A stretch of DNA of 64,000 nucleotides from Mycobacterium marseillense (GTDB taxonomy: Bacteria > Actinomycetota > Actinomycetes > Mycobacteriales > Mycobacteriaceae): positions 4,526,001 through 4,590,000 of the forward strand of contig NZ_AP022584.1 in NCBI RefSeq assembly GCF_010731675.1, written 5' to 3'. The translations under genes were made by a program, and so were the position numbers. Of the stretch, positions 23,228 through 41,619 are shown piece after piece. Each line of letters opens with the position of its first letter. The first letter of the stretch is position 1. The notes below the pieces were generated by a model. The model did not search any database. It was not told the DNA's origin and saw nothing but the letters and a program-made list of their open reading frames with translations.

Positions 23228-23281
23228 GAGCTAGCGACTTTTAATCCGCAGGTCCTAGGTTCGGGAGTCCTAGTGGGGGCA
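23228..23281 (+). pseudogene. Broken tRNA-Lys 3' fragment (inverted relative to the intact gene)
   Basis: Fifty-four bases match the last two thirds of the intact tRNA-Lys at 26552-26627, from GAGCTA through the anticodon arm GACTTTTAATCCGCAGGTCC to GTGGGGGCA, with GC/CG swapped at two positions and two extra G in the T-loop. The 5' part is missing, so it is not functional. It lies on the plus strand while the intact gene is on the minus strand, so the 3' ends face each other across a 3.3-kb island. It is probably an integration scar. Confidence 0.8.
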
Positions 23282-26551: not shown

Positions 26552-26627
26552 TGGTGCCCCCACTAGGACTCGAACCTAGGACCTGCGGATTAAAAGTCCG
26601 TAGCTCTACCAACTGAGCTATAGGGGC
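26552..26627 (-). tRNA. lysT: tRNA-Lys (anticodon TTT)
   Basis: A complete cloverleaf on the minus strand, with acceptor GCCCCTA/TGGGGGC, D-arm AGCTCAGTTGGTAGAGCT, anticodon loop CTTTTAA and T-arm CTAGGTTCGAGTCCTAG, with the CCA end encoded. A broken inverted copy is at 23228-23281. It is transcribed away from the Glu-Asp-Phe cluster. Confidence 0.96.
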
Positions 26628-26956: not shown

Positions 26957-27033
26957 GGCCAGGTAGCTCAGTCGGTACGAGCGTCCGCCTGAAAAGCGGA
27001 AGGTCGGCGGTTCGATCCCGCCCCTGGCCACCA
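26957..27033 (+). tRNA. pheU: tRNA-Phe (anticodon GAA), integration target
   Basis: Acceptor GGCCAGG/CCTGGCC, anticodon loop CTGAAAA and encoded CCA. The 3' 52 bases (26982-27033) recur exactly at 40554-40605, so this gene was the target and has been kept intact at the left end of the integrated element. Confidence 0.97.
26982..27033 (+). repeat. attL: 52-bp direct repeat (tRNA-Phe 3' half)
   Basis: Identical over all 52 bases to 40554-40605; flanking bases differ on both sides. It begins in the anticodon stem (CGTCCGCCTGAAAAG) and ends at CCA. The integrase gene ends 33 bp inside. Confidence 0.95.
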
Positions 27034-27065
27034 GTCTTGAACTGCACGGACGCGGTGACAGCACT

Positions 27066-28223
27066 CTATGGATATTTCGGTGTGTCCGGTTCCTGTCCGT
27101 TCGCCTGGTCTTTGGCGACGTCATTGAGCCGGTCGAGATTCGTAGCGACGTGGTCGAGTTCGTCTGAGTAGAGGTCGCTGTAGATGTTGGCGGTGACAGT
27201 CGGCGTCGAGTGCCCCATGGTCTTCTGGACGTAGCGGAGGTCGGCCCCGGATTTGCGGGCGAGGCTCGCGTAGGTGTGGCGCAGGTCGTGGATCGTCAAC
27301 GGCGCCAAGCCGGTTTGCTTGAGGGCTTTGTTCCAGTGGGTGTGTCTGCGCCAGTTGTTTGATCTGAGAAAGCCGCCGTTTGGTGAAGTGATCGCTTGTT
27401 CTTTAGGTGAGCGGTTTTCGATTCGTGGCTCGAGCGCGTCGATGACGATTTGGGGGAGTGGGACGGTTCGGACGGCGGCGCGAGTTTTCGGTGGCCCGAC
27501 GATAATTCGGCCCTCCACGTCCGGGGCGGCTTGGCGGACGTAGAGGCGGCGTGCTTTGAGGTCGATGTCGCCGACGCGCAGGCCGACGAGTTCGGACCAG
27601 CGCAGACCGGTAAAGGCCAGGATTGTGACGATGTCGCCTTGGCCGCCGCAGGCGGTTGCTAGGGCGGCGACTTCCGTAGCGGAGAGGTAGCGGTGACGTT
27701 CCCGCGCCGGCATCCGACCGGATGACACACCTTGGGCCGGGTTGATGTGAATTCGGCCGTCCTCGCGAGCCATGTCGAGAATCGAGCGCAGCAGCCGGAG
27801 CGTGGCGAGTCTGGCCCACGGGCCCACGGTGAGGCCGCCGATGAACTGCTGCACATCCTTCCGGCTGACCTCGTCGACCGGGACATGGCCGAAGCGCGGG
27901 CTGATACGCAGTTCCCAATGCTGCACGTAGCCGCTCCACGTCTTGGGGGAAACGGCCGGCTGCTTCGACGCGCTGTATTGCGTCCAGATAGCGGAGAGGC
28001 TGGCGCGGCCAAGTCTGGGGTCGAATCGTCGGGCGCCGATCGCCGACTCGCCGTCGCGATCCGCCTTGAACGCGCGCGCTTCCCGCATGGTGGCAAACGT
28101 CGATGATGTCTCGACCCATCCTGACGGGGAGTTTGGATCGCGCACCAGGTAGCGCACTTGGTAGCGCGCCTGGCCGGCTGAATTGGTCCGCTTTCGGATG
28201 CCGCGCGGTACTGATCCGGCCAC
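27066..28223 (-). CDS. int: Tyrosine site-specific integrase
   Basis: A 385-aa tyrosine recombinase with an SAM-like core-binding domain (about 75-155) and a catalytic domain (about 175-360). Catalytic residues are Arg in FTGLRWSELVGL, the HDLRHTYASLARKSG box (His and Arg), His in MGHSTPTVT and the Tyr nucleophile in ANIYSDLY. It directs recombination between the element's attP and tRNA-Phe. It starts at GTG directly after the xis stop (TAAGTG) and ends beside attL. Confidence 0.95.
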   Translation of the reverse strand: MAGSVPRGIRKRTNSAGQARYQVRYLVRDPNSPSGWVETSSTFATMREARAFKADRDGESAIGARRFDPRLGRASLSAIWTQYSASKQPAVSPKTWSGYVQHWELRISPRFGHVPVDEVSRKDVQQFIGGLTVGPWARLATLRLLRSILDMAREDGRIHINPAQGVSSGRMPARERHRYLSATEVAALATACGGQGDIVTILAFTGLRWSELVGLRVGDIDLKARRLYVRQAAPDVEGRIIVGPPKTRAAVRTVPLPQIVIDALEPRIENRSPKEQAITSPNGGFLRSNNWRRHTHWNKALKQTGLAPLTIHDLRHTYASLARKSGADLRYVQKTMGHSTPTVTANIYSDLYSDELDHVATNLDRLNDVAKDQANGQEPDTPKYP

Positions 28224-28454
28224 TTAGCGGTGCACCTGCTTGAGCCACGCGCGGACTTCCGCTGCGTCCCAACGTCTTACGCGATCAGATAGCGTGTAGC
28301 AGGGCGGCCCCACATCTGCGCCGTGTTCCCGTAGCGCGCCCCATCGGCTCACGGTGGCAGTGGACACGCCAAGCAGCTCCGCCACCTGTTCCGCTGTCAG
28401 AAGCTCTGGAAAGGTCGCTATCTTGGTGGTGGCGTTGATGCCAAGAGTTGCCAT
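28224..28454 (-). CDS. xis: Excisionase (MerR/Xis-type helix-turn-helix)
   Basis: A 76-aa DNA-binding protein with the HTH_17 pattern LLTAEQVAELLGVSTATVSR and a C-terminal RRWDAAEVRAWLKQV. I take the ATG at 28454, ten bases after the stop of the transfer gene, with GAGG upstream. It would bend DNA to turn the integrase toward excision. It abuts int with no spacer. Confidence 0.88.
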   Translation of the reverse strand: MATLGINATTKIATFPELLTAEQVAELLGVSTATVSRWGALREHGADVGPPCYTLSDRVRRWDAAEVRAWLKQVHR

Positions 28455-28464
28455 GCCGCTGTCC

Positions 28465-29811
28465 TCAGTTCTCTGCGGGACCAGTAGATCTTTGGCTCTT
28501 GAACCCGTATTCTTGTGCAACAGAACGGATTAACGAATCTGGCCAGTAGTCGGCACGTACTCGCATCGTTGATCCGTCTTCTGCGATGACGTATCCGGTC
28601 CCAGGTTCACTCGGGTTGATGCGGTGCGCGGGTGCGGCATCAGCGAGGCCATCACCCAGAACCATCGCGACTTCGTCGCGTGAACGCAGCCGCAATGCAA
28701 CGGTCTGGGTGAACAACCCGCGCATGGGCAGAATCTCCTTGCGGGGGTCCTGCATGAAGGCGGTGGCCACGAGGCCTACGGCCCTGCCCTTTGTCAGGAT
28801 GCGTGAGAGCGAGGCTGCAACTTGCTTCTTGAGGGCGACGTCTGTCATGTAAGCGGTCAAGCCCGCCAATTCATCGATGAGCAGCACCACGAGCGGTTCG
28901 GCGGTGCTCGGTGTGTGCGAACGCGCTTGGCCGGCCATCCTGCGGCCACGGCAATCCAGCAGCTCCTCCAACTTGTTGAGCAGGCTCGCGGCCTCGACCT
29001 CGGTCGTCGCGATCTTGCTGAATAGGGCGGAGCCGACTGACACTTCGATCCCGTACTTGAGGTCGACGGCGAAAAGCCGCACGGTTCCTGACCTGATGGC
29101 CGGGCCTAAGCCGCCTGCAATGCCCCAAAAAATGGAGCCCTTGCCCGCTCCTGAGCACCCGACAGTGAGGGTGTGGAGGCCAGCGACGCGGAGAATCCAA
29201 GCCGAGCCGTTCTCCCGTCGGCCAATCTTAACGGCAGTTGCCTCGGTGCAGGCTGGCCGTCTAGCAGTCTTGATGGCCGACAGCTGTTGTCGCATAACAA
29301 ATTCCATGCGAACCGTCCCGGGTGCTACCACCGTGGAACGGGCGGAATGTGCCCCGACAGCGTCGCGGATCGCGGGGACCGCGTTTTCGAGGTCATCGAC
29401 TGTCTGGCCCGTTCGTGTGCGGACGGTCATGTGCAGGCAGTGATCGGAGATGCTCACCCCGAGAAGGCGAGGGTGGGTCCAGACTGTCTTCGTCGTGGTC
29501 TTGCCCTGCGAGTCCGTACGTGCGACGCGCTCGGAAGTCGACAGCCCGCAGGCCTTGGCAACTCGCGGCCAAGAGGTCAACGCCCATAGCAGCCATCGGA
29601 TCCGCCGCGCAGGGGTTGCGACATAGCGCCCAAATGTGGCGGGCGAACGCAGTCTCCAAACGACGAGCGAAAGGGTGACCACGCCGGTCACCGCGGTGAG
29701 CCATGTGGCGCCGACCGTCAGTAGGTGCGTGAGGTCAAAGAGGTCCGTCCCGGCGTCGGGATCTGGAATCGAATACGGATCGCTAGGTACTACGGGGTCG
29801 TACGGACTCAT
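28465..29811 (-). CDS. FtsK/SpoIIIE-family conjugal transfer ATPase (TraSA-like)
   Basis: A 448-aa membrane ATPase. Two helices lie near the N-terminus (about 30-55 and 75-90). The FtsK domain has Walker A GCSGAGKGSIFWGI and Walker B PLVVLLIDELAGL, with ALRLRSRDEVAMVLGDG near the end. Single proteins of this type move double-stranded plasmid DNA between mycelia in Streptomyces. The ATG start overlaps the Pra-like stop in ATGA; the N-terminal 59-codon extension is discarded. Confidence 0.9.
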   Translation of the reverse strand: MSPYDPVVPSDPYSIPDPDAGTDLFDLTHLLTVGATWLTAVTGVVTLSLVVWRLRSPATFGRYVATPARRIRWLLWALTSWPRVAKACGLSTSERVARTDSQGKTTTKTVWTHPRLLGVSISDHCLHMTVRTRTGQTVDDLENAVPAIRDAVGAHSARSTVVAPGTVRMEFVMRQQLSAIKTARRPACTEATAVKIGRRENGSAWILRVAGLHTLTVGCSGAGKGSIFWGIAGGLGPAIRSGTVRLFAVDLKYGIEVSVGSALFSKIATTEVEAASLLNKLEELLDCRGRRMAGQARSHTPSTAEPLVVLLIDELAGLTAYMTDVALKKQVAASLSRILTKGRAVGLVATAFMQDPRKEILPMRGLFTQTVALRLRSRDEVAMVLGDGLADAAPAHRINPSEPGTGYVIAEDGSTMRVRADYWPDSLIRSVAQEYGFKSQRSTGPAEN

Positions 29812-30230
29812 GCTGACGCCCGGTCTGCCGCTGAGGACCCCGCCTTGCCAGTGTCCGCGGTCATGCTCGAGGCCCGAAACGACCACGCAATGCGGCCGGA
29901 TTCGCTCGAACGGTCCACGTACGGCAACACGCACAACTCTTCGAAAATCACTGGTGTAAAAGGCATTCCGGCAGTGTTCTGTGGGCACACAGGCTGCTTG
30001 GGCGTTGCGAACTTGACGGTCAGGGTGCGTGCCCGCTTGCTCGCGGCCGGATCACCGTCGAGGACTTCCACCTGCCACAACGGCAGGCCTGATTCTCGAT
30101 CAGTCGCCTGAACCTTGTTGTCTTTCGTTGACCGCTCGTAATCGATCACCGGCGTCACATCTGACACCACGAACGCTTTGTGTGGGAAAACCTGCTGGTG
30201 GGACAGCTTGAGCCACTTCGGCACAGACAC
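29808..30230 (-). CDS. Pra-like plasmid replication/integration/excision activator
   Basis: A 140-aa protein of the family that precedes tra genes in AICEs. Hallmarks are SGLPLWQVEVLDGDP in the middle, TLTVKF and MPFTPVIFEELCVLPYVD later, and a Ser/Ala-rich tail. In pSAM2, Pra switches on rep, xis and int. I take the GTG at 30230 with AAAGG 8 nt upstream. A copy of the GntR operator word lies 46 bp upstream, so it is predicted to be repressed by the GntR protein. Confidence 0.75.
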   Translation of the reverse strand: MSVPKWLKLSHQQVFPHKAFVVSDVTPVIDYERSTKDNKVQATDRESGLPLWQVEVLDGDPAASKRARTLTVKFATPKQPVCPQNTAGMPFTPVIFEELCVLPYVDRSSESGRIAWSFRASSMTADTGKAGSSAADRASA

Positions 30231-30255
30231 TTTGTCGACCTTTCGTAGAACTGCT

Positions 30256-30286
30256 CTAGACAAGTTGAGGGTACATAGTCGTCTAG
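30256..30286. promoter_or_regulatory. Predicted GntR operator upstream of the Pra-transfer operon
   Basis: CTAGAC (30256-30261) and GTCTAG (30281-30286) form an inverted pair, and the right half TAGTCGTCTAG is the exact reverse complement of 11 bases in the operator at 31132-31142. Confidence 0.6.
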
Positions 30287-30329
30287 AGGAGTGCAACGGG
30301 CGACGCGTGATTCGTGTGAGACTTTGCGC

Positions 30330-31124
30330 TCAGCGGGCCGGGAACTCGTATTCGAGCAGGTAGGCGGAGGCCACCTTCACGGTGTCGCAGACCTCCACCG
30401 CCACGTCATCGGTGTCGTAAGCGGTTCGCAACACCGTAAGCACCGGAACTCCTGAGTCAAGCTCCAGCTGCCGCCGTTCTTCAGGAGTGGGCATCCGAGC
30501 GGCGACTTCTTCAGTGAAGCGAGCAAGCACATGACCGTGCTCTTCTAAGCGCGCGTAGATACCACCGGGTCCGGTATCCAGCTGCTCGATCCTCGTGCCT
30601 TCGGCAAATGCCGCCGGAATGTACGAGACGGCCGTCTCGACGGGTCGCCCATTCGCCAGGTAACGCCTCGATCTCACGACAATGTCATCGCCGTCTGAAA
30701 CTCGAAGGCGCTCAGCCACAAACGAATTCGGCCTCTCTCGGCTCACAACGATGTTGTCCACCTGCGGCGCGAAATCGGATTTCTCCGCCTCGACGGTAAA
30801 TGCAGCCTTGCCCTCGGCGCGGTGCTGTCGTGCGAATCGATCAGACGCTAGTCTGCGGATTCGAGGTTCCGGGCGGACGAACACCCCGCGGCCGTGTTGT
30901 GAGATGACCAATCCGTCGGAACGAAGCTCCTGCACCGCTTGTCTTACAGTCATGCGCGCTACACCGAAATGTTCGATCAGTTCCGCCTCGGACGGCAGTC
31001 GCTCCCCGGGTGCGAGCCGATTGGAACTGATCGCCTCTCGCAGTATGCCCGCGATTTGCCGATATGGCGGTTTGTCATCGCCTCGATCGATTTGTCCAAG
31101 TTGCAGCACCCGCGAGCCTTCCAT
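30330..31124 (-). CDS. GntR-family repressor with UTRA domain (KorSA-like)
   Basis: A 264-aa regulator. The winged HTH (about 18-85) has PPYRQIAGILREAISSNRLA, GERLPSEAELIEHFGVARMT and VISQHGRGVFV, and the UTRA ligand domain covers about 110-255. KorSA in pSAM2 represses pra and keeps the element integrated. The ATG start at 31124 is 8 bp from the palindrome at 31132, so it should also repress itself and the divergent NUDIX gene. Confidence 0.9.
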   Translation of the reverse strand: MEGSRVLQLGQIDRGDDKPPYRQIAGILREAISSNRLAPGERLPSEAELIEHFGVARMTVRQAVQELRSDGLVISQHGRGVFVRPEPRIRRLASDRFARQHRAEGKAAFTVEAEKSDFAPQVDNIVVSRERPNSFVAERLRVSDGDDIVVRSRRYLANGRPVETAVSYIPAAFAEGTRIEQLDTGPGGIYARLEEHGHVLARFTEEVAARMPTPEERRQLELDSGVPVLTVLRTAYDTDDVAVEVCDTVKVASAYLLEYEFPAR

Positions 31125-31131
31125 TACATGT

Positions 31132-31148
31132 CTAGACGACTAGTCTAG
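31132..31148. promoter_or_regulatory. Palindromic operator between GntR and NUDIX genes
   Basis: Perfect 6-bp arms, CTAGAC and GTCTAG, flank GACTA. Eleven bases (CTAGACGACTA) recur inverted at 30276-30286, before the Pra-like gene, tying both promoters to one repressor. Confidence 0.65.
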
Positions 31149-31202
31149 GAAGCCAGTCAACCCGTGTCACCTCCGACGGCATCGAACAATGGAGACCGAA
31201 CG

Positions 31203-31631
31203 ATGGGAACCACTCCTAAACACTCAGTCAGTGTCGCCGGCATCGTCGTACGTGGCGATGATCGCATTCTCGTGATCCGGCGAGATGACAACGGCCACTG
31301 GGAAGCCCCCGGTGGCGTACTCGAACTGGACGAATCCTTCGAGGATGGTGTGCGGCGGGAAGTCCTCGAGGAAACTGGATTGAAGGTCACGGTGCAACGT
31401 CTTACCGGCGTCTACAAGAACCTCAAGCAGGGGATTGTCGCGTTGGTCTACCGCTGCAGTCCTGCCGCTGGCGACACGCACCCGACTGCCGAAGCCCGGG
31501 AAGTCCGTTGGATGGCGAAAGAAGAAGTTCAGTCTGAGATGAGCCCTGCTTTCGCCGTGCGCGTTCTGGACGCATTCGACGAATATCCGCACTCGCGTGC
31601 CCACGATGGAGCCAACGTTCTTTCAGAGTAG
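31203..31631 (+). CDS. NUDIX hydrolase (Pif-like)
   Basis: A 142-aa protein with a complete Nudix box, GGVLELDESFEDGVRREV followed by LEETGL (G-x5-E-x7-R-E-x2-E-E-x-G). ATG at 31203 with GGAG 8 nt upstream. In pSAM2 a NUDIX protein, Pif, blocks transfer between cells that already hold the element; the same role here is inference from position beside the KorSA-like gene. A housekeeping nucleotide-cleaning role is the alternative. Confidence 0.88.
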   Translation: MGTTPKHSVSVAGIVVRGDDRILVIRRDDNGHWEAPGGVLELDESFEDGVRREVLEETGLKVTVQRLTGVYKNLKQGIVALVYRCSPAAGDTHPTAEAREVRWMAKEEVQSEMSPAFAVRVLDAFDEYPHSRAHDGANVLSE

Positions 31632-31699
31632 AGACTGTGACGGGGCCACATTGCGTTTAGCCGGCCAACCGTATGCCCCGAGTTCAAAGCGGTCTACTT

Positions 31700-32299
31700 T
31701 CAATCGAATCCAGCCAACGTGACTCTCAAAGCTTCTTTCAACTGAACGTGCAGCGGTGGCTTCGTTTCAGTGTCTGAGCTCAGCCAGCGCCGAAGTATGA
31801 ATTGTGCGGTGGCCAAACCCGTGTGGACCAGCAGCGAGGGACGGATGTCGGATGCCGCATCGACGCCCATCCTTGTGGCGACGAGTTCGACGAGCTTGCG
31901 GTCATCGTTGTCGCTGATCAGTACCGATTCGCTCAGTAGGTGGGGGGCGGTCAGTATGGCTCGTTGCCAGTAGTGCGGGTTCGGATTGGTTTTGTCCCAG
32001 GCGGTTTCGGCAAACAACGCGATCAGCGCCTCGGCTGCCGATTGGTCCGACGGCTGAGCGCCGTAGGCACCAACGATTTCGGCGACCGCCTGCCGCAACG
32101 GCGCGACAAGAAGGTCGTCCTTCGTAGGCGCGTAACGGAAGTAAGTACTGATGGATATCCCGGCACTGGCAGCGATGTCCTCAGTGGTCACAGCAGCAAA
32201 TCCACGTTCGGCAAAAAGTTGGTGCGCGGTGCCCTGGATCTGCGAGAGCAACTCGGCACGGCGTCGGTCCCTTAACGAGCCAGTATTTGCGGAGGGCAT
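31700..32299 (-). CDS. TetR/AcrR family regulator (cargo)
   Basis: A 199-aa regulator with an HTH at about 20-65 (FAERGFAAVTTEDIAASAGI, then SISTYFRYAPTKDDLL) and a divergent ligand domain. ATG at 32299 with GAAGG upstream; the 25-codon extension is discarded. It is in the same orientation as, and downstream of, the hydrolase and MmpL genes, 157 bp away. It may regulate the transporter together with or against the second TetR at 37287. Confidence 0.85.
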   Translation of the reverse strand: MPSANTGSLRDRRRAELLSQIQGTAHQLFAERGFAAVTTEDIAASAGISISTYFRYAPTKDDLLVAPLRQAVAEIVGAYGAQPSDQSAAEALIALFAETAWDKTNPNPHYWQRAILTAPHLLSESVLISDNDDRKLVELVATRMGVDAASDIRPSLLVHTGLATAQFILRRWLSSDTETKPPLHVQLKEALRVTLAGFD

Positions 32300-32455
32300 G
32301 ACATCGCCTTCGTCAATCCGACATTCCCAGATGCTTCCTGAGTTATGGTACGAACAGTAGCGTAGCGAAACCAACAGTACTAGGGGGGTTCACTTGCTGG
32401 TCTCGCAGTGTTGGGGGCCCAGCAGGCGACGCGGGTTTCACGGGAAAAGACCGTC

Positions 32456-33346
32456 TCACAAAAATACGCGGCGGTCGAGGAAGTCGGTGACAGCGCTGGT
32501 GAAGGCGTCGTTGTCGTCGCCGGCAACCATATGACCTGTGCCCGTCACGTCAGTTGTTTCGGCGTGCGGGACGAGTTCGAGGAATTCGTTGACCGTTTCC
32601 TCGGAGACGACGTCTGAAAGCGCGCCCCGCACTAACAGCGTCGGGGCCGTGATTCGACGTGCTCCTTCGGCGAGAAACCCGCTGATCGCCTCGAACTCCT
32701 CGGTGTCGGTCATGAGTTCGCCTTGCAGGACATCGAAGTTGGAGCTGATGAAGGCTGGGTCCCAGCGCCAGACCCATCGACCGTCGCTACGTTGGCGCAG
32801 AACTTTGTGCAGACCGTCGAGATTTTCGGGTCGCGGTCGGCGCGGGTTGTATTCGGCGATGATGTCGGCGGCATCGGTGAGTGTGCCGAAGCCGTCGGGG
32901 TGGGCGGCCATGAACGACACGATGCGACGGGCCCCGTGGAACTCCATCCTCGGGGTGATGTCGACGAGAATAACGGCTGCCCACAGCCCGGCTGGGGCCA
33001 GCAGGTGGGTTGCCAGGATGGTTAGCCCACCCAGCGACGCGCCAACGAGGGCAGGGGGACTCTCGGTGCCGACGTGTTCTCGAACCGAGAGCAGATCGGC
33101 GACGAACTTTTCGACGTCGTATTGTCCGCTCGGGTCCCAGTCGCTGTCGCCGTGGCCGCGGGTGTCGTACGCGATGACGGTGTAGCCATGGGCGTGGAGG
33201 CGACGAGCTGTGGTGGCCCAGGCGTGGCGGTTTTGGCCGCCGCCATGGAGGAGCAACACCACGGGACCAGTCGTGGGGTGCCGGTAGCAATCCGCCACGA
33301 GAGTGATGCCGTCGCGCGTGTGGATGCGCTCCTGAGTAAGTGTCAT
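32456..33346 (-). CDS. Alpha/beta-fold hydrolase (cargo)
   Basis: A 296-aa alpha/beta hydrolase. Oxyanion HGGG lies near residue 34, the nucleophile elbow is LVGASLGGLT (Ser about 103), the acid is in LVRGALSDVV and the His in GTGHMVAGDD. It is soluble, without a signal peptide. It lies 72 bp behind the MmpL gene in the same direction, which suggests it acts on the transporter's substrate, such as a lipid or ester; the actual substrate is unknown. Confidence 0.88.
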   Translation of the reverse strand: MTLTQERIHTRDGITLVADCYRHPTTGPVVLLLHGGGQNRHAWATTARRLHAHGYTVIAYDTRGHGDSDWDPSGQYDVEKFVADLLSVREHVGTESPPALVGASLGGLTILATHLLAPAGLWAAVILVDITPRMEFHGARRIVSFMAAHPDGFGTLTDAADIIAEYNPRRPRPENLDGLHKVLRQRSDGRWVWRWDPAFISSNFDVLQGELMTDTEEFEAISGFLAEGARRITAPTLLVRGALSDVVSEETVNEFLELVPHAETTDVTGTGHMVAGDDNDAFTSAVTDFLDRRVFL

Positions 33347-33418
33347 GTAATCCGCGCCCCTTTGGGCGCAAGGTCCACGCCCGTCACGCTGCGTTGTCCC
33401 TCAGGTGACATGTCATCG

Positions 33419-36400
33419 TCAGCGTGCTCTGGCGCGCGGGGCCAAGGGCTTCCGTTGAGGCCACCAGCTGGCCTCACCGAGCAATGTGGCGATCGCGGGA
33501 ACCGTGAGGGTGCGGACCACGAAGGTGTCCAGGAGTAGGCCGCAGCCGATGATGAGTCCGGCTTGGAGCATGATCGCGACGGACCCGACCATAAGGCCGA
33601 ACATGCTGGCCGCGAAGATGAGCCCGGCCGAGGTGATGACTGAGCCGGTGTTCGCGACCGTGCGCAGCACGCCGACGCGAATGTTGTGAGCGGATTCCTC
33701 GCGTAGCCGCGAGATCAGCAGCATGTTGTAGTCGGCGCCCACCGCGACCAGGATGATGAACGCCAAAAGCGGAACGGGCCAAGCGATTTGCTTGCCCAGG
33801 CCGTATTGGAAGACCAGTGTGCCGATGCCCAGTGCGGCTGCGTAGTTGAGTACGACCGTACCGAGCAGGTAGAGCGGGGCCACCACGGCACGTAGCAGAA
33901 CGACGAGGGTCAACCCGACGATGACGAGTGTGGCGATGGCCAGTAGGTGAAAGTCGGCCGACAGGAGGCGCTGGATATCGGAATTGACGGCGGGGAAGCC
34001 GGCCATCGATATCCGGGCGTGAGCCAGCGAGGTGTTGGGGCGTGCGGCATCGGCAACGTGCGTGATCTTCTGCGCGAGATCCATCGCTTCGCTGCTGTAG
34101 GGGTTGTAGCTAGATTCGATGGCGAAGCGCGCGGTCTTGCCGTCAGCGGATAGAAAGTGCTTTGCCACATCGGAGAACTGGCGATTCTCGAAGGCGTTAG
34201 CGGGAAGGTAGAAGCCGCTGGAGTTGTCCGAACCGGCGCTGGATCGCGCGGAATTCTGTAGCTGGGTGGCGATCTGACTCATGCCGGACAACATTTCGAT
34301 GTTGCTGTCGGCGAGGGTGTGCACACCGGTGGCTAGGGCTTGTGCTCCCGACGCGAGCTGGCTGATGCCGTTTTGAAGGCGGCCGATGTTGCCGGCCATG
34401 TCGGCGGGATCGCCAAGCGCTCCGAAGGCCTTGTCCAGCGAAGTGACTGTGCGCTGCAGGTCTGCCACGGTGCCGCCTGCATTATTGGCATCGGGCTGGT
34501 ACAAATCGCCGAGGTCGGCGAGCTGGCTGAAAAAGCCGCCATCGCGCAAAGTCACCAAGATCCGTACCTGGTCGCGGATCTGGGCACACTCGGGGGTGGT
34601 GGCACACCAGGGGGAGGTGTTGAGCGCACCGACCAGCGGGTCGATGGTGGCGATCGCTTGTTGGGCTTGTTGAGCTTCTTGGCGTAGCCCGGGCCCGGTT
34701 CGAATAGCTTGGTCGACGGTCGGTGTGGTAGCCGAAAGCTGCTGCAGCAGCTGGCGAAAGCGCTGAAATTGTGGCCCGCTGGACTGGGCTTGGGTAAGGA
34801 TCCCGGTCAGCGGAGTCAGCGCCGTGCGCAGGGTGGTGTCAAGTTGCGCCAGGCCGCCCGCGAGTTGGTCGGCGCCACCGGTGAGTTTGGTGAGATCGGT
34901 CTTGTGGGCGTCTCCTTTGGCGACGGCATCGGCCATCTTGGTGCCGATCTGGCCGTTCTGCCAAGAAAGCTGTGCCTGGTCCAGTCGCGCCCCGGTAGGC
35001 CGGGTGACGCCGGAAACTTTGGTGACACCTGGCAATTGCGACACGCGAGACGCCATTTCGTCCAGGTCGGCCAGGCTTTTACCGGTGCGCATATCGGTCG
35101 GTGATTCGACGACCATGAACTGCGTGATAACGATATCTTTGCGAAAGTGCCTGTCCAGCAGATGATAACCCTCGTTGCTGGCGGTCGTTTCCGGCTGGCC
35201 TTGACGGTCGTCATAGCTCATGCGCATGGTCAGCGCCACAGCAGCTAGCCCTAACACGAGAGCCAGGCTGGCGGCCAGCAATGGGCCGGGCCGGCGGACT
35301 ACGGCCACCGCGATCCAGTTCCAGTAGCGGCGTGTGCGGTCGGCTTTGGGCTCGCCGATGCCGCGTTTAGCGGCCAGCGCCAACACCGGTGGGAACAACG
35401 TCACGGTGGCCGCGACTCCGACGAAGACGGCTATCGCACACGCTGGGCCCAGCGCGCCAAAAACGCTCAGCTTTGCAAACACCATGGCCAAAAATGCAAA
35501 CGCCACAGTCGCCGCGGAGGCCAGGATTACGCGCCCGATGGTGGCGGTCGCATTGATCACCGCGAGGTCGGGCGAGACCCCCTGGCGGCGTTGCTCGTGA
35601 TACCGGCTGATCAAAAACACCGAATAATCGGTGCCGGCGCCCAACAGAATCGCCGTCATGAACGCGATGGTGAATTGCGACACCGGCATCCCCGCTTCGC
35701 CCAGCCCCGAGAGCACTCCGCGCCCTACCCCAAGACTGACGCCGATAACCACCAGTGGCAGCAACGCGGTAAACAATGACCTATAGATGACCAGCAAAAT
35801 CAGCGCAATCAGCCCCGCGGTCACCACAGAAATGACAATCAAATCCTGCTCAGCCGAATCAATTTGATCGCTGAACGTCGCGGGAGGGCCGGTTACGCGA
35901 ACCGTCGTGGACGTACCGTTAAACGACTGGGCGGCGATAGCGCGCACCACCTGGACGGATTCTGCCGCCTTCGGATCGCCGAGTGTGCCCGCCACCCCGA
36001 CCGGCAGATACCATGCCTTGCCGTCCTGGCTCACCGCCTGACCGGCAGTAACCGGGTCGGCCAACAGATCCTGAACCAGTCGCACATGCTTGGAATCGGC
36101 ACGCAACCGCGAAACCATCGCGTTGTAACGCTGACGCACCGGCGCAGTCAGGCCCGTCGGGTCCTCTACCGCGACGAAGACGGTTGTCTTGGATCCCTGC
36201 TCGCCGAATGCGATCCCCATCCGGTCCACGGTTTGCAGCGAGGGCGCATCAGGAGGGATGAGATTCACCGACTGCTGCTTTACGACGATCTCCAATTGCG
36301 GGAACAGCACGGCTAAGACGCCGGCAGCCACCACCCACGCGGCGATGACCAGAACCTTGTGCCGGATACTGAACCGCGCTAAGCGGGCAAGCCGGTCGCT

Positions 36401-36496
36401 GTAAACGCCCTCACCAGCGGTGACCTTGCGGAGTTGTTCCCGGACCGGCCGACTCAAGGTCGCCACGCCCGACGAAACCCACCCGGTATCTACCAT
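33419..36496 (-). CDS. MmpL-family RND transporter (cargo)
   Basis: A 1025-aa membrane protein. One helix lies at about 48-68, followed by a periplasmic porter domain and five to six helices at about 210-385. A second, larger porter domain (about 430-805) includes a Gln/Ala-rich coiled segment, and a second helix bundle covers about 820-1005. MMPL hallmarks are GAGTDYSVFLISRYHEQRR and GADYNMLLISRLREES. Such proteins export lipids, siderophores or drugs. It is full length, has no mmpS partner nearby, and is the largest gene of the element. Confidence 0.9.
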   Translation of the reverse strand: MVDTGWVSSGVATLSRPVREQLRKVTAGEGVYSDRLARLARFSIRHKVLVIAAWVVAAGVLAVLFPQLEIVVKQQSVNLIPPDAPSLQTVDRMGIAFGEQGSKTTVFVAVEDPTGLTAPVRQRYNAMVSRLRADSKHVRLVQDLLADPVTAGQAVSQDGKAWYLPVGVAGTLGDPKAAESVQVVRAIAAQSFNGTSTTVRVTGPPATFSDQIDSAEQDLIVISVVTAGLIALILLVIYRSLFTALLPLVVIGVSLGVGRGVLSGLGEAGMPVSQFTIAFMTAILLGAGTDYSVFLISRYHEQRRQGVSPDLAVINATATIGRVILASAATVAFAFLAMVFAKLSVFGALGPACAIAVFVGVAATVTLFPPVLALAAKRGIGEPKADRTRRYWNWIAVAVVRRPGPLLAASLALVLGLAAVALTMRMSYDDRQGQPETTASNEGYHLLDRHFRKDIVITQFMVVESPTDMRTGKSLADLDEMASRVSQLPGVTKVSGVTRPTGARLDQAQLSWQNGQIGTKMADAVAKGDAHKTDLTKLTGGADQLAGGLAQLDTTLRTALTPLTGILTQAQSSGPQFQRFRQLLQQLSATTPTVDQAIRTGPGLRQEAQQAQQAIATIDPLVGALNTSPWCATTPECAQIRDQVRILVTLRDGGFFSQLADLGDLYQPDANNAGGTVADLQRTVTSLDKAFGALGDPADMAGNIGRLQNGISQLASGAQALATGVHTLADSNIEMLSGMSQIATQLQNSARSSAGSDNSSGFYLPANAFENRQFSDVAKHFLSADGKTARFAIESSYNPYSSEAMDLAQKITHVADAARPNTSLAHARISMAGFPAVNSDIQRLLSADFHLLAIATLVIVGLTLVVLLRAVVAPLYLLGTVVLNYAAALGIGTLVFQYGLGKQIAWPVPLLAFIILVAVGADYNMLLISRLREESAHNIRVGVLRTVANTGSVITSAGLIFAASMFGLMVGSVAIMLQAGLIIGCGLLLDTFVVRTLTVPAIATLLGEASWWPQRKPLAPRARAR

Positions 36497-37286
36497 CCCC
36501 CGTCTCCGCTACGTTGAAAGAAACTAACGGTATCGCAACAGTACTACCGGTACCCTTTCATGGTGTCGGTGAAACTGCTACCGACAGGCGTGCCCATTCC
36601 ACTGCGGCGGCACCGATCGGCCCTGGCGCTCGACCTCGATGTCCTGTCGCCGGTTCCGTACCTCGGATACGTCAGTACGTAATCCATTGGTATGCAGATC
36701 ATTTGACGTTGGGCATGGGTCATCGCTGGCTGCTGACAAGCTCACGAACGCCGTAGGCGAAATGCCAGCCGGGAACTCAGCCTGATCGGCTCATCGCGAA
36801 CATGATCGTGCATTTCCCGACTCATCAGATCGTCGTCCAGGTACGAGCAAGTGCGAGGGGGATAGTGACGTGGACGAACGCGGCCCTGGTCGACCGGGCG
36901 TCCTTGGTGTGTGCGCTTGGCAATACCGCGACTGGCCAGCCGGATATCCCGAACCGCACGCCTCCAGAGGTGGGTTTTCGTCAGCGAAATCGGCACATTC
37001 ATCAGGATTTGACGTCTTTCGTCCGTGAGGTCGCCGCGCCGAGGCAGAAGCTGGATCCTTCGATAGCCACGCGGCCGGCCGACTGGGGGCAGCACCGTCG
37101 ACTCCCCCGGGTCCCGAACCGCTCGACCGGTTGCCTGATCACCAATCCTCCTTCGGTGCTTGGCCTACACCGCCAAAGTGTACTCATAGTATCGCTACGA
37201 TACTACTAGTATCGTTCGACGGATTGAATGGCTTCCCCGGTGCAATTCGCTGCGGGCCAGGTTCGTGGGGGGTTTACGGTGACTAC
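36497..37286. other. Gene-poor divergent promoter region of the MmpL and TetR genes
   Basis: About 790 bp with no convincing gene; short frames on both strands lack family features or ribosome sites. Near 36530-36560 there is a GGTATCGCAACAGTACTACC stretch close to the MmpL start, and at 37187-37214 a clear TetR-type operator. The long middle part may hold remnants of lost cargo. Confidence 0.4.
37187..37214. promoter_or_regulatory. Palindromic operator plus extra half-site upstream of TetR
   Basis: TAGTATCG / CGATACTA with a 3-bp centre (37187-37205) is followed at once by a third TAGTATCG half-site (37207-37214). It is 73 bp upstream of the TetR start and likely its own site. GTATCG also occurs near the MmpL start. 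Confidence 0.6.
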
Positions 37287-37982
37287 GTGGAGCGTGACGC
37301 CGAAACCTCGGTAGATGAAGACGACGACGTCGACCCACGCCGCCTTCGGTCACGGACCCGATTGCTGGATGCGGCGACTAAACTCCTCAATGCCGGTGGC
37401 ATCGAAGCCGTCACCATCGACGCGGTCACCAAAGCCTCCAAGGTCGCACGCACCACGCTGTATCGGCACTTCACCAGCTCCACCCAACTGCTGGCCGCCA
37501 CATTTGAACGGCTGCTACCGCAGGTCACCCCACCACCTGCTACGGGATCATTACGCGACCAACTGATCGAGCTGTTGAGCCGACAGGCGACCCTCTTTCA
37601 AGAAGCGCCGCTGCACGTCACCACGCTGGCCTGGGTCGCGCTCGGGCCAACACCGGACGGCACAGAGGAAACCTACGATCGCAACGCGCTCCGAACACGG
37701 ATCATCGACCACTACCGCCAACCGTTCAACAGCCTCCTAGAAGGCCCTGAAGCCCGAGCCGGCCTCGACGACTTCGATCTAGAACTGATCCTGTGCCAAC
37801 TCGTCGGCCCGGTGGCGTTCGCTCGACTCACCGGGCTGCGCGCAGTCGATCGCCGAGATTGTGAACGTATAGTCGACGATTTCCTCACCGCGCACCGCCG
37901 CCCGGCAGACACACCCCCTTCGCGGCCCTCGGCCCGGAAATCCTCGTCCGGCATAAGCCATTCCGATCAAGGCGGCAACTAG
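37287..37982 (+). CDS. TetR/AcrR family regulator (cargo, divergent from MmpL)
   Basis: A 231-aa regulator with an acidic head (DEDDDVDPRR), an HTH at about 30-75 (LLNAGGIEAVTIDAVTKASK, ARTTLYRHFTSSTQLLA) and a C-terminal ligand domain. I use the GTG at 37287; the open frame extends 52 codons upstream through the operator and is not credible there. Divergence from the MmpL gene makes it the likely repressor of the exporter. Confidence 0.85.
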   Translation: MERDAETSVDEDDDVDPRRLRSRTRLLDAATKLLNAGGIEAVTIDAVTKASKVARTTLYRHFTSSTQLLAATFERLLPQVTPPPATGSLRDQLIELLSRQATLFQEAPLHVTTLAWVALGPTPDGTEETYDRNALRTRIIDHYRQPFNSLLEGPEARAGLDDFDLELILCQLVGPVAFARLTGLRAVDRRDCERIVDDFLTAHRRPADTPPSRPSARKSSSGISHSDQGGN

Positions 37983-38415
37983 CTCGGCAGACGGTCGACG
38001 ATGCATAGCCCGGATCGGGCTCGCGCACACTGCGCAACTAAAAAGTGTCAACGGCAAGCGAAAACTGATCAGCTTGCCGCGCAGTGGTCAGTATTCAGTT
38101 GCCGCCGACAAAAAGTCGATTCCCAGTCGGTATGCGGGCCCGCAGGGCACGAAACGCTATCCGCGCCAGCGACGCATCGAGACAGAAGTGAACGACCCGA
38201 TCGAAGTGCGGCGTGACGGTAGGTGTTCACCCCGATGTCAACCACAGGACCGGGAACACGCGTTCGCCACGATCGGACAAGCCGGAAGGCAGCAGCACCG
38301 AATCACCGGGATACATCATGCTGTCATGCACATCGCATCACACCGGCGTTGGGGGACATCCACCCTCAGCGACCCACGTGTCTTTCGTGGCCAGCTTAAG
38401 AGCAGACTCATTGCC
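37983..38415. other. Gene-free stretch inside the element
   Basis: About 430 bp between the TetR stop and the next gene. Short overlapping frames show no family, start site or codon pattern that I would defend. It may contain the replication origin or transfer site expected near rep, but I see no diagnostic repeat. Confidence 0.3.
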
Positions 38416-38787
38416 TCAGTCAGCATCAGTAACACGTTCGGCGCCAGCGGCTTTTAGCAGCTGGTCGCGCGCTTCATGAAGCCTATCGAGGGCGCTCTTC
38501 AAGTCGAGAGCGGCGTCGGCCAATTCAGAGCGGGCCGCCGGGTCGCCGTGTGAAGCAAGGCTCGCGGTCGCCGACGTGAGCGCCCTAACGTGGCGCATGA
38601 CATCAATGGTGTAGCGAGCGGTCCGCATCGCGGTGGCACCCTCGGTTCGCTGGAGATGATCTCTCATGAGACCTAGCCAATCATCGATCGTGTATCGATC
38701 GAAGTTGTACATCGCGTTGAGCACCCAGCGTTGCCAGGCCGGTGGGCGTTGTGATGACGTCCGGAGCAGGACCGGAGGAGTAACCAT
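38416..38787 (-). CDS. Hypothetical helical protein, 123 aa
   Basis: A mostly helical soluble protein (YTIDDWLGLMRDHLQRTEGA, then ALDLKSALDRLHEARDQLLK) without a recognised family. The last 40 residues could form a coiled coil. It lies downstream of the rep gene in the same direction, 107 bp apart, so a helper role in replication or maintenance is possible but unproven. Another ATG (MYNFDR) 25 codons in is an alternative start. Confidence 0.5.
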   Translation of the reverse strand: MVTPPVLLRTSSQRPPAWQRWVLNAMYNFDRYTIDDWLGLMRDHLQRTEGATAMRTARYTIDVMRHVRALTSATASLASHGDPAARSELADAALDLKSALDRLHEARDQLLKAAGAERVTDAD

Positions 38788-38894
38788 GATCGAAATTTTA
38801 GGGCGCGAAACCGGCGTTTTCGACGGTCAGAATAAAGAATGTATGACGTGACGAACCCGAGTGCGCATTGTGGCAATGGATGAGTTCGGCTGCT

Positions 38895-40364
38895 TTATCT
38901 AGGTGACGCCCCCGACACTGCGGCAGCTAGGTTGGACGCAAAAGCCGGACCGTCATTCACTAGTGCGTATCCGCCCGCGAGGCCTCCTTGGCTGCAGAAG
39001 GCTCGTCGTCGGCGCACCCTCCGGAAGGTCACGACGCCCGTGTACTGACCAACGCGGGGGACCAGGCGAGTGGCCGTGCGCGGCACGACGGCGGTGGGGA
39101 AGCTGCTGCCGGGATTGCCGTATATCGCTTGGCTACGTGACCAGCGTCGCACGATCCGGCGCGCAGCCAGGTATGCGTCCTGAGCTACCTCTACAACCGC
39201 AATGGCCTTCTTGAGTCCGCAGACACCCCAGAATCGGCCGGGTCCGCGCCCAGGTTGCTGCCACAAATTGGGCACGATATGCTGATATTCCTTGTCGCCG
39301 TTGATGTTTGGCGATGAGTGTTTGGTGAAGTAGATAGCCAGGCGTTTCGGGTCACACGCACGTAATCCGTTGCGAACATCGATGGCCGTGCCAGCGAGCA
39401 AATGGCGCTCGCGCTGCTCGGGATCCGGATGGCCGACGATCTCCGCCCATTCGCGCGAGAGCCAGTCGCGGAATTTGACGCCGGATCGGCCTACCGCATG
39501 CGGCGGAGCCATCCAGAGGTGAATGTGCGGAGCGCCGCGGCGTTGAAATTCCAGCTTCCAGATGTAGCGGGCCGGTTCACCCCATTCCCGTTGAAAACGT
39601 TTGCGCCACAGCATCATATGCCGCTTTACGCTAGCCCCATCAGGTGCTACAGATTCCCAGTCGCCGGGGTAGGTCAAGGTGACCATTGCAGGGACACGGT
39701 CGCACTCCACCAGTGGCGTGTAGTCGAGCTCGGCGAAGGTGCGACACATTGCCGCGCGCGACTTGCGAGACCATTCGGTGATCGCACGGGCTGCCGAGTC
39801 GGGAATGTTGCGACCGGCCTCAATGCGATCAACCTCTGCCGTCACATCGAGGCGGTGTCGTTTGACTGCACGCTCAGATGCCTTTTCCGGACGCACCGGG
39901 TTGGTCCAGCCGAGTCGGACTACACCGGGGCCGATCGTGATCCGAAATCGGCCGGACTCAGGTTCTACGCCCAGCCGGCCCCGCCCTCGCGCCCACGGCC
40001 CCGCCGGTTCAAAGAGTGCTGCCGCCGAGGCCACCAGCTCGGGCCTTGGGAACCGCAGTCCGAGGGCATCTGCCGCCGATAACTGCGCATCAACACCGCC
40101 CTCGGCGGCATCGCGGACACTTTTGGCACATATAACAAGCCCGTTGGTCCCAGCCGGAACACGGCCTACGCCGCTCCCGCCGTCCGACCGACCGCTACCG
40201 CTCTCGCGCCCTGCGGCCCTGGCGGCCTCGGGCACTCGCGGCCTCCCGGCGTCCGCGGCTCCGTCCGTGTTCCGGCTGGCCGTTCGGCTTGTGTCCGGCC
40301 GAAGAGTGGGTCGCTCCGCGGTCGTGCTCGTTGGACGGGCGGTCGACCTCGTGATGCTGGGCAT
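38895..40364 (-). CDS. Rolling-circle replication initiator (RepSA-like)
   Basis: A 489-aa replication protein of the actinobacterial RepSA family. Diagnostic segments are VPAMVTLTYPGDWESVAPDG, ARYIWKLEFQRRGAPHIHLW (with the HxH metal motif of HUH enzymes), LRACDPKRLAIYFTKHSS and GRGPGRFWGVCGLK. The first 90 residues are low-complexity. It nicks the circular form of the element to start replication. It ends the gene set next to attR, as expected. Confidence 0.88.
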   Translation of the reverse strand: MPSITRSTARPTSTTAERPTLRPDTSRTASRNTDGAADAGRPRVPEAARAAGRESGSGRSDGGSGVGRVPAGTNGLVICAKSVRDAAEGGVDAQLSAADALGLRFPRPELVASAAALFEPAGPWARGRGRLGVEPESGRFRITIGPGVVRLGWTNPVRPEKASERAVKRHRLDVTAEVDRIEAGRNIPDSAARAITEWSRKSRAAMCRTFAELDYTPLVECDRVPAMVTLTYPGDWESVAPDGASVKRHMMLWRKRFQREWGEPARYIWKLEFQRRGAPHIHLWMAPPHAVGRSGVKFRDWLSREWAEIVGHPDPEQRERHLLAGTAIDVRNGLRACDPKRLAIYFTKHSSPNINGDKEYQHIVPNLWQQPGRGPGRFWGVCGLKKAIAVVEVAQDAYLAARRIVRRWSRSQAIYGNPGSSFPTAVVPRTATRLVPRVGQYTGVVTFRRVRRRRAFCSQGGLAGGYALVNDGPAFASNLAAAVSGASPR

Positions 40365-40553
40365 CGCGCATCTGCTCCCCGGGAGCCCTCGGCGCGCATC
40401 ACTGAGTGAAGGGCGATGAAGGGGTCCCTGTCGGGAGTGCTGTCACCGTGTCCGGTTTGTGTCCGATCGTCGGACGGGCAGCCTGCGTCAGACGCGCTCA
40501 GCGCGCCGCATTTGACGCATGAACGACGTTAAACCGCAGGCCAGTGGCCATTC

Positions 40554-40605
40554 CGTCCGCCTGAAAAGCGGAAGGTCGGCGGTTCGATCCCGCCCCTGGC
40601 CACCA
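40554..40605 (+). repeat. attR: 52-bp direct repeat (tRNA-Phe 3' half)
   Basis: Exact copy of 26982-27033. Upstream sequence does not fold into the 5' half of a tRNA, so this is only the duplicated end. It marks the right border of the element; the SDR gene beyond is chromosomal. Confidence 0.95.
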
Positions 40606-40726
40606 CGATGGTGATCGCCCATGATCATCGAGATGGAGCACGAGGTTGCCGCGGCGCAACCGGCTCATCGGCCCTCGCAAGATCCAGGCAAGCGTTCTGC
40701 TCCGGCCGGTCCCAGGACAGTCAGCA

Positions 40727-40759
40727 ACGACAGCAGTGCCCGCGGGGCACTGCTGTCGT
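40727..40759. terminator. Strong bidirectional hairpin terminator (15-bp stem, 3-nt loop)
   Basis: ACGACAGCAGTGCCC and GGGCACTGCTGTCGT pair without a mismatch around GCG. It lies 21 bp after the SDR stop (40780) and 120 bp outside attR. There is no U-run, as usual in mycobacteria. Confidence 0.75.
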
Positions 40760-40779
40760 CGGTGGGGGAGCGAAAACCC

Positions 40780-41619
40780 TTACTTGAGCATGCTCCCGGC
40801 GTCGACGGTGACCGGAAGACCTGTGATGTAACGGGATTCGTCGGAAGCCAGGAACAGCACGGCGTTGCTGATGTCCGCGGGCTCGACCCAACCGATGGGC
40901 AGCACGTGCATGAACTGCGCGGCGACTTTGAGGTCATCGGGCCCGGGATTCTTCAGGTCGGGCCGGAACAGCTTCATCGTCCCCTCGTTCATGAACATGG
41001 GCGTGTTCACGTTGGTGGGGTGCACCGAATTCACCCGAATGAAGTGCTCGCCGAGTTCGACGGCGAAGGTGCGCATCAAGCCGACCACGCCGTGCTTGGC
41101 GGCGATGTAGTGACCGGTGTGCGGATAGGCCTTGAGGCCGCCGACCGAGCTGGTCAGAATGATCGAGCCGCCTTGTCCCTGGGAAATCAGGTGCGGCACA
41201 CCGGCTTTGACGGTTTTCCAGACGCCGGAAAGGTTGACGTCGATCATGTCGCGCCAGTCGTCTTCACTGGTCTTGTCGAGGGTCTGCCCGCCGTTGCCGA
41301 TTCCGGCGTTGGCGCAGATGATGTCCAGCCGGCCGAGCTGCTCGACGCCGCTGTCCACCGCCGCCTTCAGCGCGTCGAAATCGCGCACGTCGACTTCTGC
41401 GGTCACGATGCGCCGGTTGAGGCCCTTGATAAGGTCGGCCGTCTCGGCTAGATCATCCGGTGTGGACGGCGGGATCTCGCTGCTGCTGCTGATCGGCGTG
41501 CAGATGTCGACCGCGATGATGTCGGCGCCTTCCTGCGCCAGGCGCACCGCGTGGCTGCGGCCCTGGCCGCGAGCCGCCCCGGTGATGAACGCGACCTTGC
41601 CCTCGACTCTTCCACCCAT
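40780..41619 (-). CDS. Mycofactocin-coupled SDR family oxidoreductase
   Basis: A 279-aa short-chain dehydrogenase with the nucleotide loop ITGAARGQGRSHAVRLA, the long insert after DICTPISSSSEIPPS typical of mycofactocin-associated SDRs, NAGIGNGG, and catalytic Ser (LTSSVGG), Tyr (HYIAAK) and Lys. These enzymes keep NAD bound and pass electrons to mycofactocin during alcohol oxidation. A TGATCGATCGAC operator 37 bp upstream of the start is shared with the TetR/ferredoxin promoter. Confidence 0.9.
   Translation of the reverse strand: MGGRVEGKVAFITGAARGQGRSHAVRLAQEGADIIAVDICTPISSSSEIPPSTPDDLAETADLIKGLNRRIVTAEVDVRDFDALKAAVDSGVEQLGRLDIICANAGIGNGGQTLDKTSEDDWRDMIDVNLSGVWKTVKAGVPHLISQGQGGSIILTSSVGGLKAYPHTGHYIAAKHGVVGLMRTFAVELGEHFIRVNSVHPTNVNTPMFMNEGTMKLFRPDLKNPGPDDLKVAAQFMHVLPIGWVEPADISNAVLFLASDESRYITGLPVTVDAGSMLK

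Follow-up and report, generated by a model that had tools for sequence, protein, structure and literature searches.

What is the 13.6-kb segment that follows the tRNA-Phe gene of Mycobacterium marseillense, and does it move between cells? We analysed a 64,000-nucleotide stretch of this genome (NCBI RefSeq assembly GCF_010731675.1, contig NZ_AP022584.1, positions 4,526,001 to 4,590,000), hereafter called the window; L, G and C numbers are our handles for loci, genomes and contigs. An earlier note on the same DNA had read the segment as a complete actinomycete integrative and conjugative element (AICE) of the pSAM2 type. Our analysis indicates that it is probably a member of a distinct mycobacterial AICE lineage that uses tRNA-Phe and that would integrate, excise and conjugate. 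The target gene, the attachment (att) sites and the two element ends are as follows.

26957..27033, plus strand: intact tRNA-Phe (GAA) gene, the integration target (ARAGORN, Rfam)
26982..27033, plus strand: attL core, 52-bp repeat (repeat comparison)
27034..27065, no strand assigned: left-end sequence, where the conserved end region begins and runs on into the int 3′ end (left-end matches in relatives)
40365..40553, no strand assigned: right-end sequence, from rep to attR (conserved in relatives)
40554..40605, plus strand: attR core, 52-bp repeat (repeat comparison)

The element is inserted at the 3′ half of tRNA-Phe. It is bounded by a 52-bp direct repeat of that half, 100% identical between 26982-27033 and 40554-40605, exactly where the earlier note had placed a perfect repeat enclosing 13.6 kb, and it spans 13,624 bp with both att copies included. 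The left copy forms the 3′ end of the intact tRNA-Phe gene recognized by ARAGORN and Rfam, and the right copy is a partial tRNA in Rfam. A repeat search of the whole window (seed 18) reported no other direct-repeat family reaching 30 bp; the third copy in this family, at 62% identity, is a tRNA-Asp gene. When the tRNA-Phe gene was searched against the whole genome, 100% matches occurred at just two places, the gene at 26957-27033 and attR, with three others at 77–81%. GC content in 1-kb bins is 0.58–0.65 at 27–40 kb and mostly 0.64–0.71 elsewhere in the window; low-GC bins also lie outside the element, at 23–27 kb and 57–60 kb.

Mobility was assessed at the tRNA-Phe sites of 20 relatives, taken from the best 30 matches of a tRNA-cluster search of 396 genomes; the genome set has one genome per species and the sample leans to close kin. 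Two of the 20 sites (L100 in G364, and L109 in G273, M. vulneris DSM 45247) carry the full 13,624 bp with 0 differences from the window, in the same tRNA-Phe site of species separate from that of the window. Outside att, host DNA is about 91–92% identical for L100 and 88% identical (left flank) for L109, and on the right M. vulneris has other flanking content than the window. On the right side identity ends at attR in L109 and 21 bp beyond attR in L100; the left edge is less sharp because most relatives have a similar tRNA cluster. With 0 differences inside and 8–12% outside, vertical descent is not plausible, and a 13.6-kb unit that is identical in three genomes of separate species has moved recently. 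We conclude from these comparisons that the element is really and recently mobile.

Empty sites, which the earlier note had proposed as a check, were found in five of the 20 relatives (L097, L099, L104, L108 and L113): each is clean, has a single tRNA-Phe and contains none of the core genes of the element. The M. vulneris flank after attR matches the DNA directly after tRNA-Phe in all five at 89–93%. The right flank of the window itself is less suited to this comparison, because the window (40606-40780, between attR and the next gene) and L100 both lack a 1.6-kb block that the empty sites contain (L104, 1424-3064). Nine sites hold other family members or remnants (L095, L098, L105, L106, L107, L110, L111, L112 and L114) and four hold other content (L096, L101, L102 and L103). 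Inserts of about 3.65, 12.1 and 2.4 kb at tRNA-Phe in L107, L110 and L112, flanked by 35–52 bp att copies, were considered as small mobile derivatives; we rejected this view, as all that they retain is the 3′ end of int, which makes decayed elements the better reading.

Between the att copies lie genes for integration, transfer, regulation and replication, together with a small conserved gene beside rep.

27066..28223, minus strand: int, tyrosine recombinase, 385 aa (PF00589, E 2.3e-20; PF14659)
28224..28520, minus strand: xis-like helix-turn-helix protein, start uncertain (HTH_17, E 9.5e-6, just below cut-off; phrog_66 excisionase, E 2.2e-9)
28465..29811, minus strand: tra, FtsK/SpoIIIE-like DNA translocase, 448 aa (P0001; phrog_1358, E 1.5e-17)
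29808..30236, minus strand: pra-like activator, 142 aa, overlapping the tra start (NCBI names of homologs)
30330..31124, minus strand: GntR-UTRA regulator, KorSA-like by class (PF00392, PF07702)
31164..31631, plus strand: NUDIX hydrolase, probably starting at 31203, Pif-like by class (PF00293, E 1.4e-19)
38416..38787, minus strand: small conserved hypothetical protein encoded next to rep (conserved in other loci)
38895..40364, minus strand: rep, HUH rolling-circle initiator, 489 aa, the gene nearest attR (PF23343, E 1.9e-11)

The AICE core set listed in the earlier note is thus largely borne out (int, xis, FtsK-like tra, Pra-like, GntR, NUDIX and a rolling-circle rep), except that the Rep is not strictly RepSA-like, having no match to PF20199. 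The same note had judged these genes apparently intact; all seven frames are free of internal stops, and the motifs checked are present in Int (TGLRWSE, HDLRH and GHS), in Tra (Walker A GCSGAGKG and Walker B LVVLLIDE, with a single, N-terminal hydrophobic stretch) and in Rep (HIH at 280–282 and YFTKH at 345). FtsK accounts for all three matches of the Tra family profile to the PDB at E ≤ 0.01, the FtsK_SpoIIIE model PF01580 is matched at E ≤ 1 by 33 of the 36 members of the Tra alignment, and Tra is 32–36% identical to AICE Tra proteins. The Pra-like protein had no Pfam match above cut-off; NCBI gives several of its homologs the name ‘plasmid replication, integration and excision activator’ or ‘pra like protein’, and the gene adjoins tra in relatives at 57–92% identity. 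The NUDIX gene is 75–84% identical in other family loci, with mismatches enriched at third codon positions, and a minus-strand open reading frame (ORF) at 31224-31604 was rejected as a conserved gene, being an antisense shadow of the plus-strand NUDIX gene by motif scan, Pfam and codon-position counts. Third-position mismatches are likewise enriched in the small gene beside rep, which is 79–90% identical in L015, L016 and L039 (L015 and L034 lie on the same contig). The Rep profile gave no meaningful match in the PDB, and no member of a type IV secretion system family occurs among the ORFs scanned.

A second family member in M. vulneris DSM 45247 allowed these genes to be compared between elements. 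This element B (L143, a 16,522-bp contig) has the 5′ part of tRNA-Phe at one border and, at the other, the same host flank as element A, the unit shared with the window. Between A and B, dN/dS is 0.08–0.22 for int, tra, gntR, mmpL, rep and the hydrolase gene (int 0.13, tra 0.22, gntR 0.08, rep 0.17, hydrolase 0.19). We conclude that int, tra, gntR, rep and two cargo genes are under purifying selection.

The lineage is widespread in the genus. Among 198 genomes surveyed, the window's included, Rep matches (E ≤ 1e-3, fragments included) occur in 36, with long matches at 67% or more in 24; Tra matches occur in 68, of which 21 belong to the window's lineage at identities of at least 58% and the remainder are more distant; Int matches at E ≤ 1e-60 occur in 34. 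These counts place the lineage in about one in eight or nine of the sampled genomes. Both att copies and core genes were available from ten places; L100 and L109 repeat the window's element, which leaves eight distinct elements (the window, L143, L119, L121, L126, L128, L130 and L031), and in every one the order runs from tRNA-Phe through int, xis, tra and cargo to rep and the second att copy. Visual comparison put rep immediately inside the right end in 21 of 22 genomes, the gene being truncated in G082; this count omits a further 14 genomes that match Rep, many by fragments only. None of pra, GntR and NUDIX was found in L035, where one att copy was seen. Rhodococcus marinonascens contains a broken relative (L054), and G026 (L144/L120, C1:4827454-4827724) has a junction of right end, att and left end (81% over 271 bp) followed by a further, partial rep; two family elements probably once formed a tandem array there.

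Several results weigh against an element that excises and conjugates by itself. Tra scores 16.6 bits against PF01580, for which the cut-off is 24, and no Spd-type gene was recognized among the ORFs scanned. Although pra follows tra in seven of the eight distinct elements, L128 has no pra match, and full-length GntR and NUDIX genes are likewise found in seven, L130 having a short reversed GntR match and no NUDIX; these gaps indicate that the regulatory gene set is not constant across the lineage. The right end and the att core had 0 exact matches that would mark an excised circle in viral_contigs, a collection with few relatives of the element (2 and 4). No attP-type contig was found among 32 chosen genomes, where continuous right-att-left matches came from G026, the tandem-array junction, and from G187, which runs only 21 bp past att and is too short to judge. 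Tandem repeats are unremarkable, and no cluster of clt-like 8-bp repeats of the TraB type rose above shuffled controls, degenerate repeats not being excluded by this search. Identical copies could, moreover, also spread by transduction or distributive conjugal transfer.

The best-surviving alternative builds on these points. The element would excise and replicate without conjugating by itself in mycobacteria, it would be spread by transducing phages, by hitch-hiking on plasmids or by distributive conjugal transfer, and Tra would have another role, such as circle segregation. Both the lack of clt-like repeats and the Tra score below the PF01580 cut-off suit this explanation, and 13.6 kb would fit a phage head. 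However, tra is under purifying selection and is kept in all eight distinct elements, and identity stops at attR or 21 bp past it, whereas homologous exchange would run on into host DNA. We regard this alternative as unlikely, and continue to favour an element that transfers itself.

For such a self-transmissible element we infer an excised circle, its replication and a double-stranded DNA transfer route. Int and Xis would excise the element as a circle with one 52-bp att, Rep, as an HUH rolling-circle initiator, would copy the circle, and Tra, as an FtsK/TraB-type translocase, would pump it as double-stranded DNA into a neighbouring cell, where Int would insert it into the recipient tRNA-Phe and the tRNA would stay whole. 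By analogy with pSAM2, Pra may activate these steps, GntR may repress them and the NUDIX protein may limit redundant transfer. In the integrated form, rep is separated by the length of the element from the pra-tra-xis-int run. In the circular form, the coordinates leave 273 bp, the 52-bp att among them, between int and a downstream rep of the same orientation, a placement that suggests that circularization couples rep to the upstream gene run. Transcription of pra-tra-xis-int would then read through attP into rep, and copying would occur only after excision. We offer a mycobacterial AICE lineage in which excision itself turns on replication as a tentative idea, conceivable rather than likely. 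Scans for promoters and terminators yielded no more sites than shuffled sequence did, and none within the two ends of the element; mycobacterial promoters may depart from the consensus used, and the outcome neither supports nor refutes such an excision switch.

A far less probable account attributes the identical copies to assembly or laboratory contamination, in which case recent transfer would not be demonstrated. The M. vulneris assembly contains two alternative occupants of one site, and its library may be mixed: element B and the element-A path share exactly 77 bp at each end, as would fit an assembler using 77-base words if A and B occupy the same site in different cells or the stock is mixed, and the contig names of the two occupants give depths of 17.9 and 45.9. 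However, the copies in the window's genome (G000) and in G364 lie within contigs of 5.49 and 5.40 Mb with differing flanks, and records from other projects contain an identical element B. Over the parts compared, rather than the whole element, B matches Mycobacterium sp. UM_CSW at 100% over 11,667 bp and M. interjectum at 100% over 10,049 bp, and has 1 mismatch in 11,225 bp in strain E1214. Its host flanks are 78–90% identical where comparable; the flank comparison found no match for the M. interjectum host flank.

The middle of the element carries cargo.

31700..32374, minus strand: TetR regulator with an MftR-like C terminus (PF00440, PF17754)
32456..33346, minus strand: alpha/beta hydrolase (PF00561)
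33419..36496, minus strand: MmpL-family RND transporter, 1025 aa (PF03176, E 2.1e-154)
37131..37982, plus strand: TetR regulator, divergent from mmpL (PF00440, PF16859)

The MmpL cassette recurs in other family loci. Elsewhere in the lineage cargo is variable: among selected ORFs of five other elements, restriction–modification or defence-type genes occur in three, namely Eco57I-type genes in L119 and L121 and a type IIG restriction enzyme in L126, with an LmuB-like ATPase also in L119, and no defence-like genes were seen among the selected ORFs of L128 and L130.

Next to the element, the tRNA cluster of the window has what looks like a second island, between two tRNA-Lys copies. An inverted tRNA-Lys fragment (23228-23281) lies 3.3 kb to the left of the intact tRNA-Lys (26552-26627); the stretch between them is low in GC (about 0.53), and the match breaks there in most of the 20 relatives. 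Two ORFs of this island presumably resemble DUF262 and FRG-domain proteins. The window's genome also has a second contig, C2, of about 18 kb, possibly a plasmid.

To our knowledge, few routes of DNA exchange are established in slow-growing mycobacteria. The lineage described here is compact and has recently shuttled between mycobacterial species; in the present case it brings an MmpL transporter along. Because identical copies occur in several species, its excision and transfer can be tested directly. Surveys built on the Pfam RepSA and FtsK_SpoIIIE models may have missed members, because Rep and Tra fall outside these models at their cut-offs.

How does the element relate to known systems? 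Its Rep has no match to the RepSA model PF20199 at E ≤ 1, and in the Rep alignment one of 34 members matches (E 0.0024). By contrast, the Rep of pMR2 scores 330 bits, and those of two classical AICEs in the window's own genome, L117 (G000:C1:1877000-1896900) and L118 (G000:C1:602000-621900, beside tRNA-Leu), score 411 and 418 bits; these two serve as controls because the same method, applied to the same host, gave a strong RepSA match for them and none for the element. BLAST of the element Rep against the pMR2, L117 and L118 Reps gave no match. As PF23343 also matches RepSA proteins, above cut-off in pMR2 and below it in L117 and L118, the two kinds of Rep probably share a distant superfamily. 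That the element is a classical pSAM2-type AICE, as the earlier note had it, is highly improbable: the Pra-like, GntR and NUDIX genes and a tyrosine integrase in a tRNA gene would all suit that type, but the Rep stands apart from RepSA in both searches and rep adjoins attR while xis-int adjoin attL, leaving no single rep-xis-int run.

The likeness to pSAM2 and pMR2 (NC_006910) is otherwise broad. As described in PMC3218068, these AICEs share with the element a tyrosine integrase, xis, an FtsK-like Tra, a rolling-circle Rep and insertion at a tRNA 3′ end. Class-level likeness to pSAM2 appears to extend to the Pra-like, GntR (korSA) and NUDIX (pif) genes, pSAM2 itself being represented only by the Pfam model named after it and by the literature. 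Identity to pMR2 is 32% for Tra and 31% for Int. Unlike the element, in which rep lies across att from xis-int, pMR2 has the order tra...rep-xis-int, and the Rep of both systems is RepSA, whereas that of the element matches PF23343 and not PF20199.

The idea that an AICE would be new to this genus does not hold, given L117, L118 and two publications. Mycobacterium AICEs were described in 2011 (PMC3218068), all but one with a serine recombinase and eight in one tRNA-Leu gene, and an AICE-like contig was reported from Mycolicibacterium in 2021 (PMC8190616), where such reports are called few. The sole tyrosine-recombinase Mycobacterium AICE in PMC3218068, Mkan24688, may belong to the window's lineage; we found no description of this lineage in the open-licence literature searched. 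Integrase-bearing inserts in tRNA-Phe of M. avium (PMC6798384, strains OCU464 and H87, tRNA-Phe/tRNA-Lys) resemble the element in using the same tRNA genes, in having a tyrosine recombinase and in being reported as likely mobile, but the part of that paper at hand names no Tra or Rep and does not apply the AICE label.

The closest Reps in the plasmid collection belong to the small rolling-circle plasmids NC_019201 (Streptomyces; 45% identical over 84%) and NZ_CP084060 (Nonomuraea), which also has a related Tra; both are free plasmids, however, and NZ_CP084060 has no annotated integrase. Within the host genus, the serine-recombinase AICEs L117 and L118 share with the element an FtsK-like Tra (35–36% identical) and a rolling-circle Rep, and L118 has a NUDIX relative at 32% identity. 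They differ in combining a serine recombinase with RepSA, whereas the element combines a tyrosine integrase, tRNA-Phe and a non-RepSA Rep.

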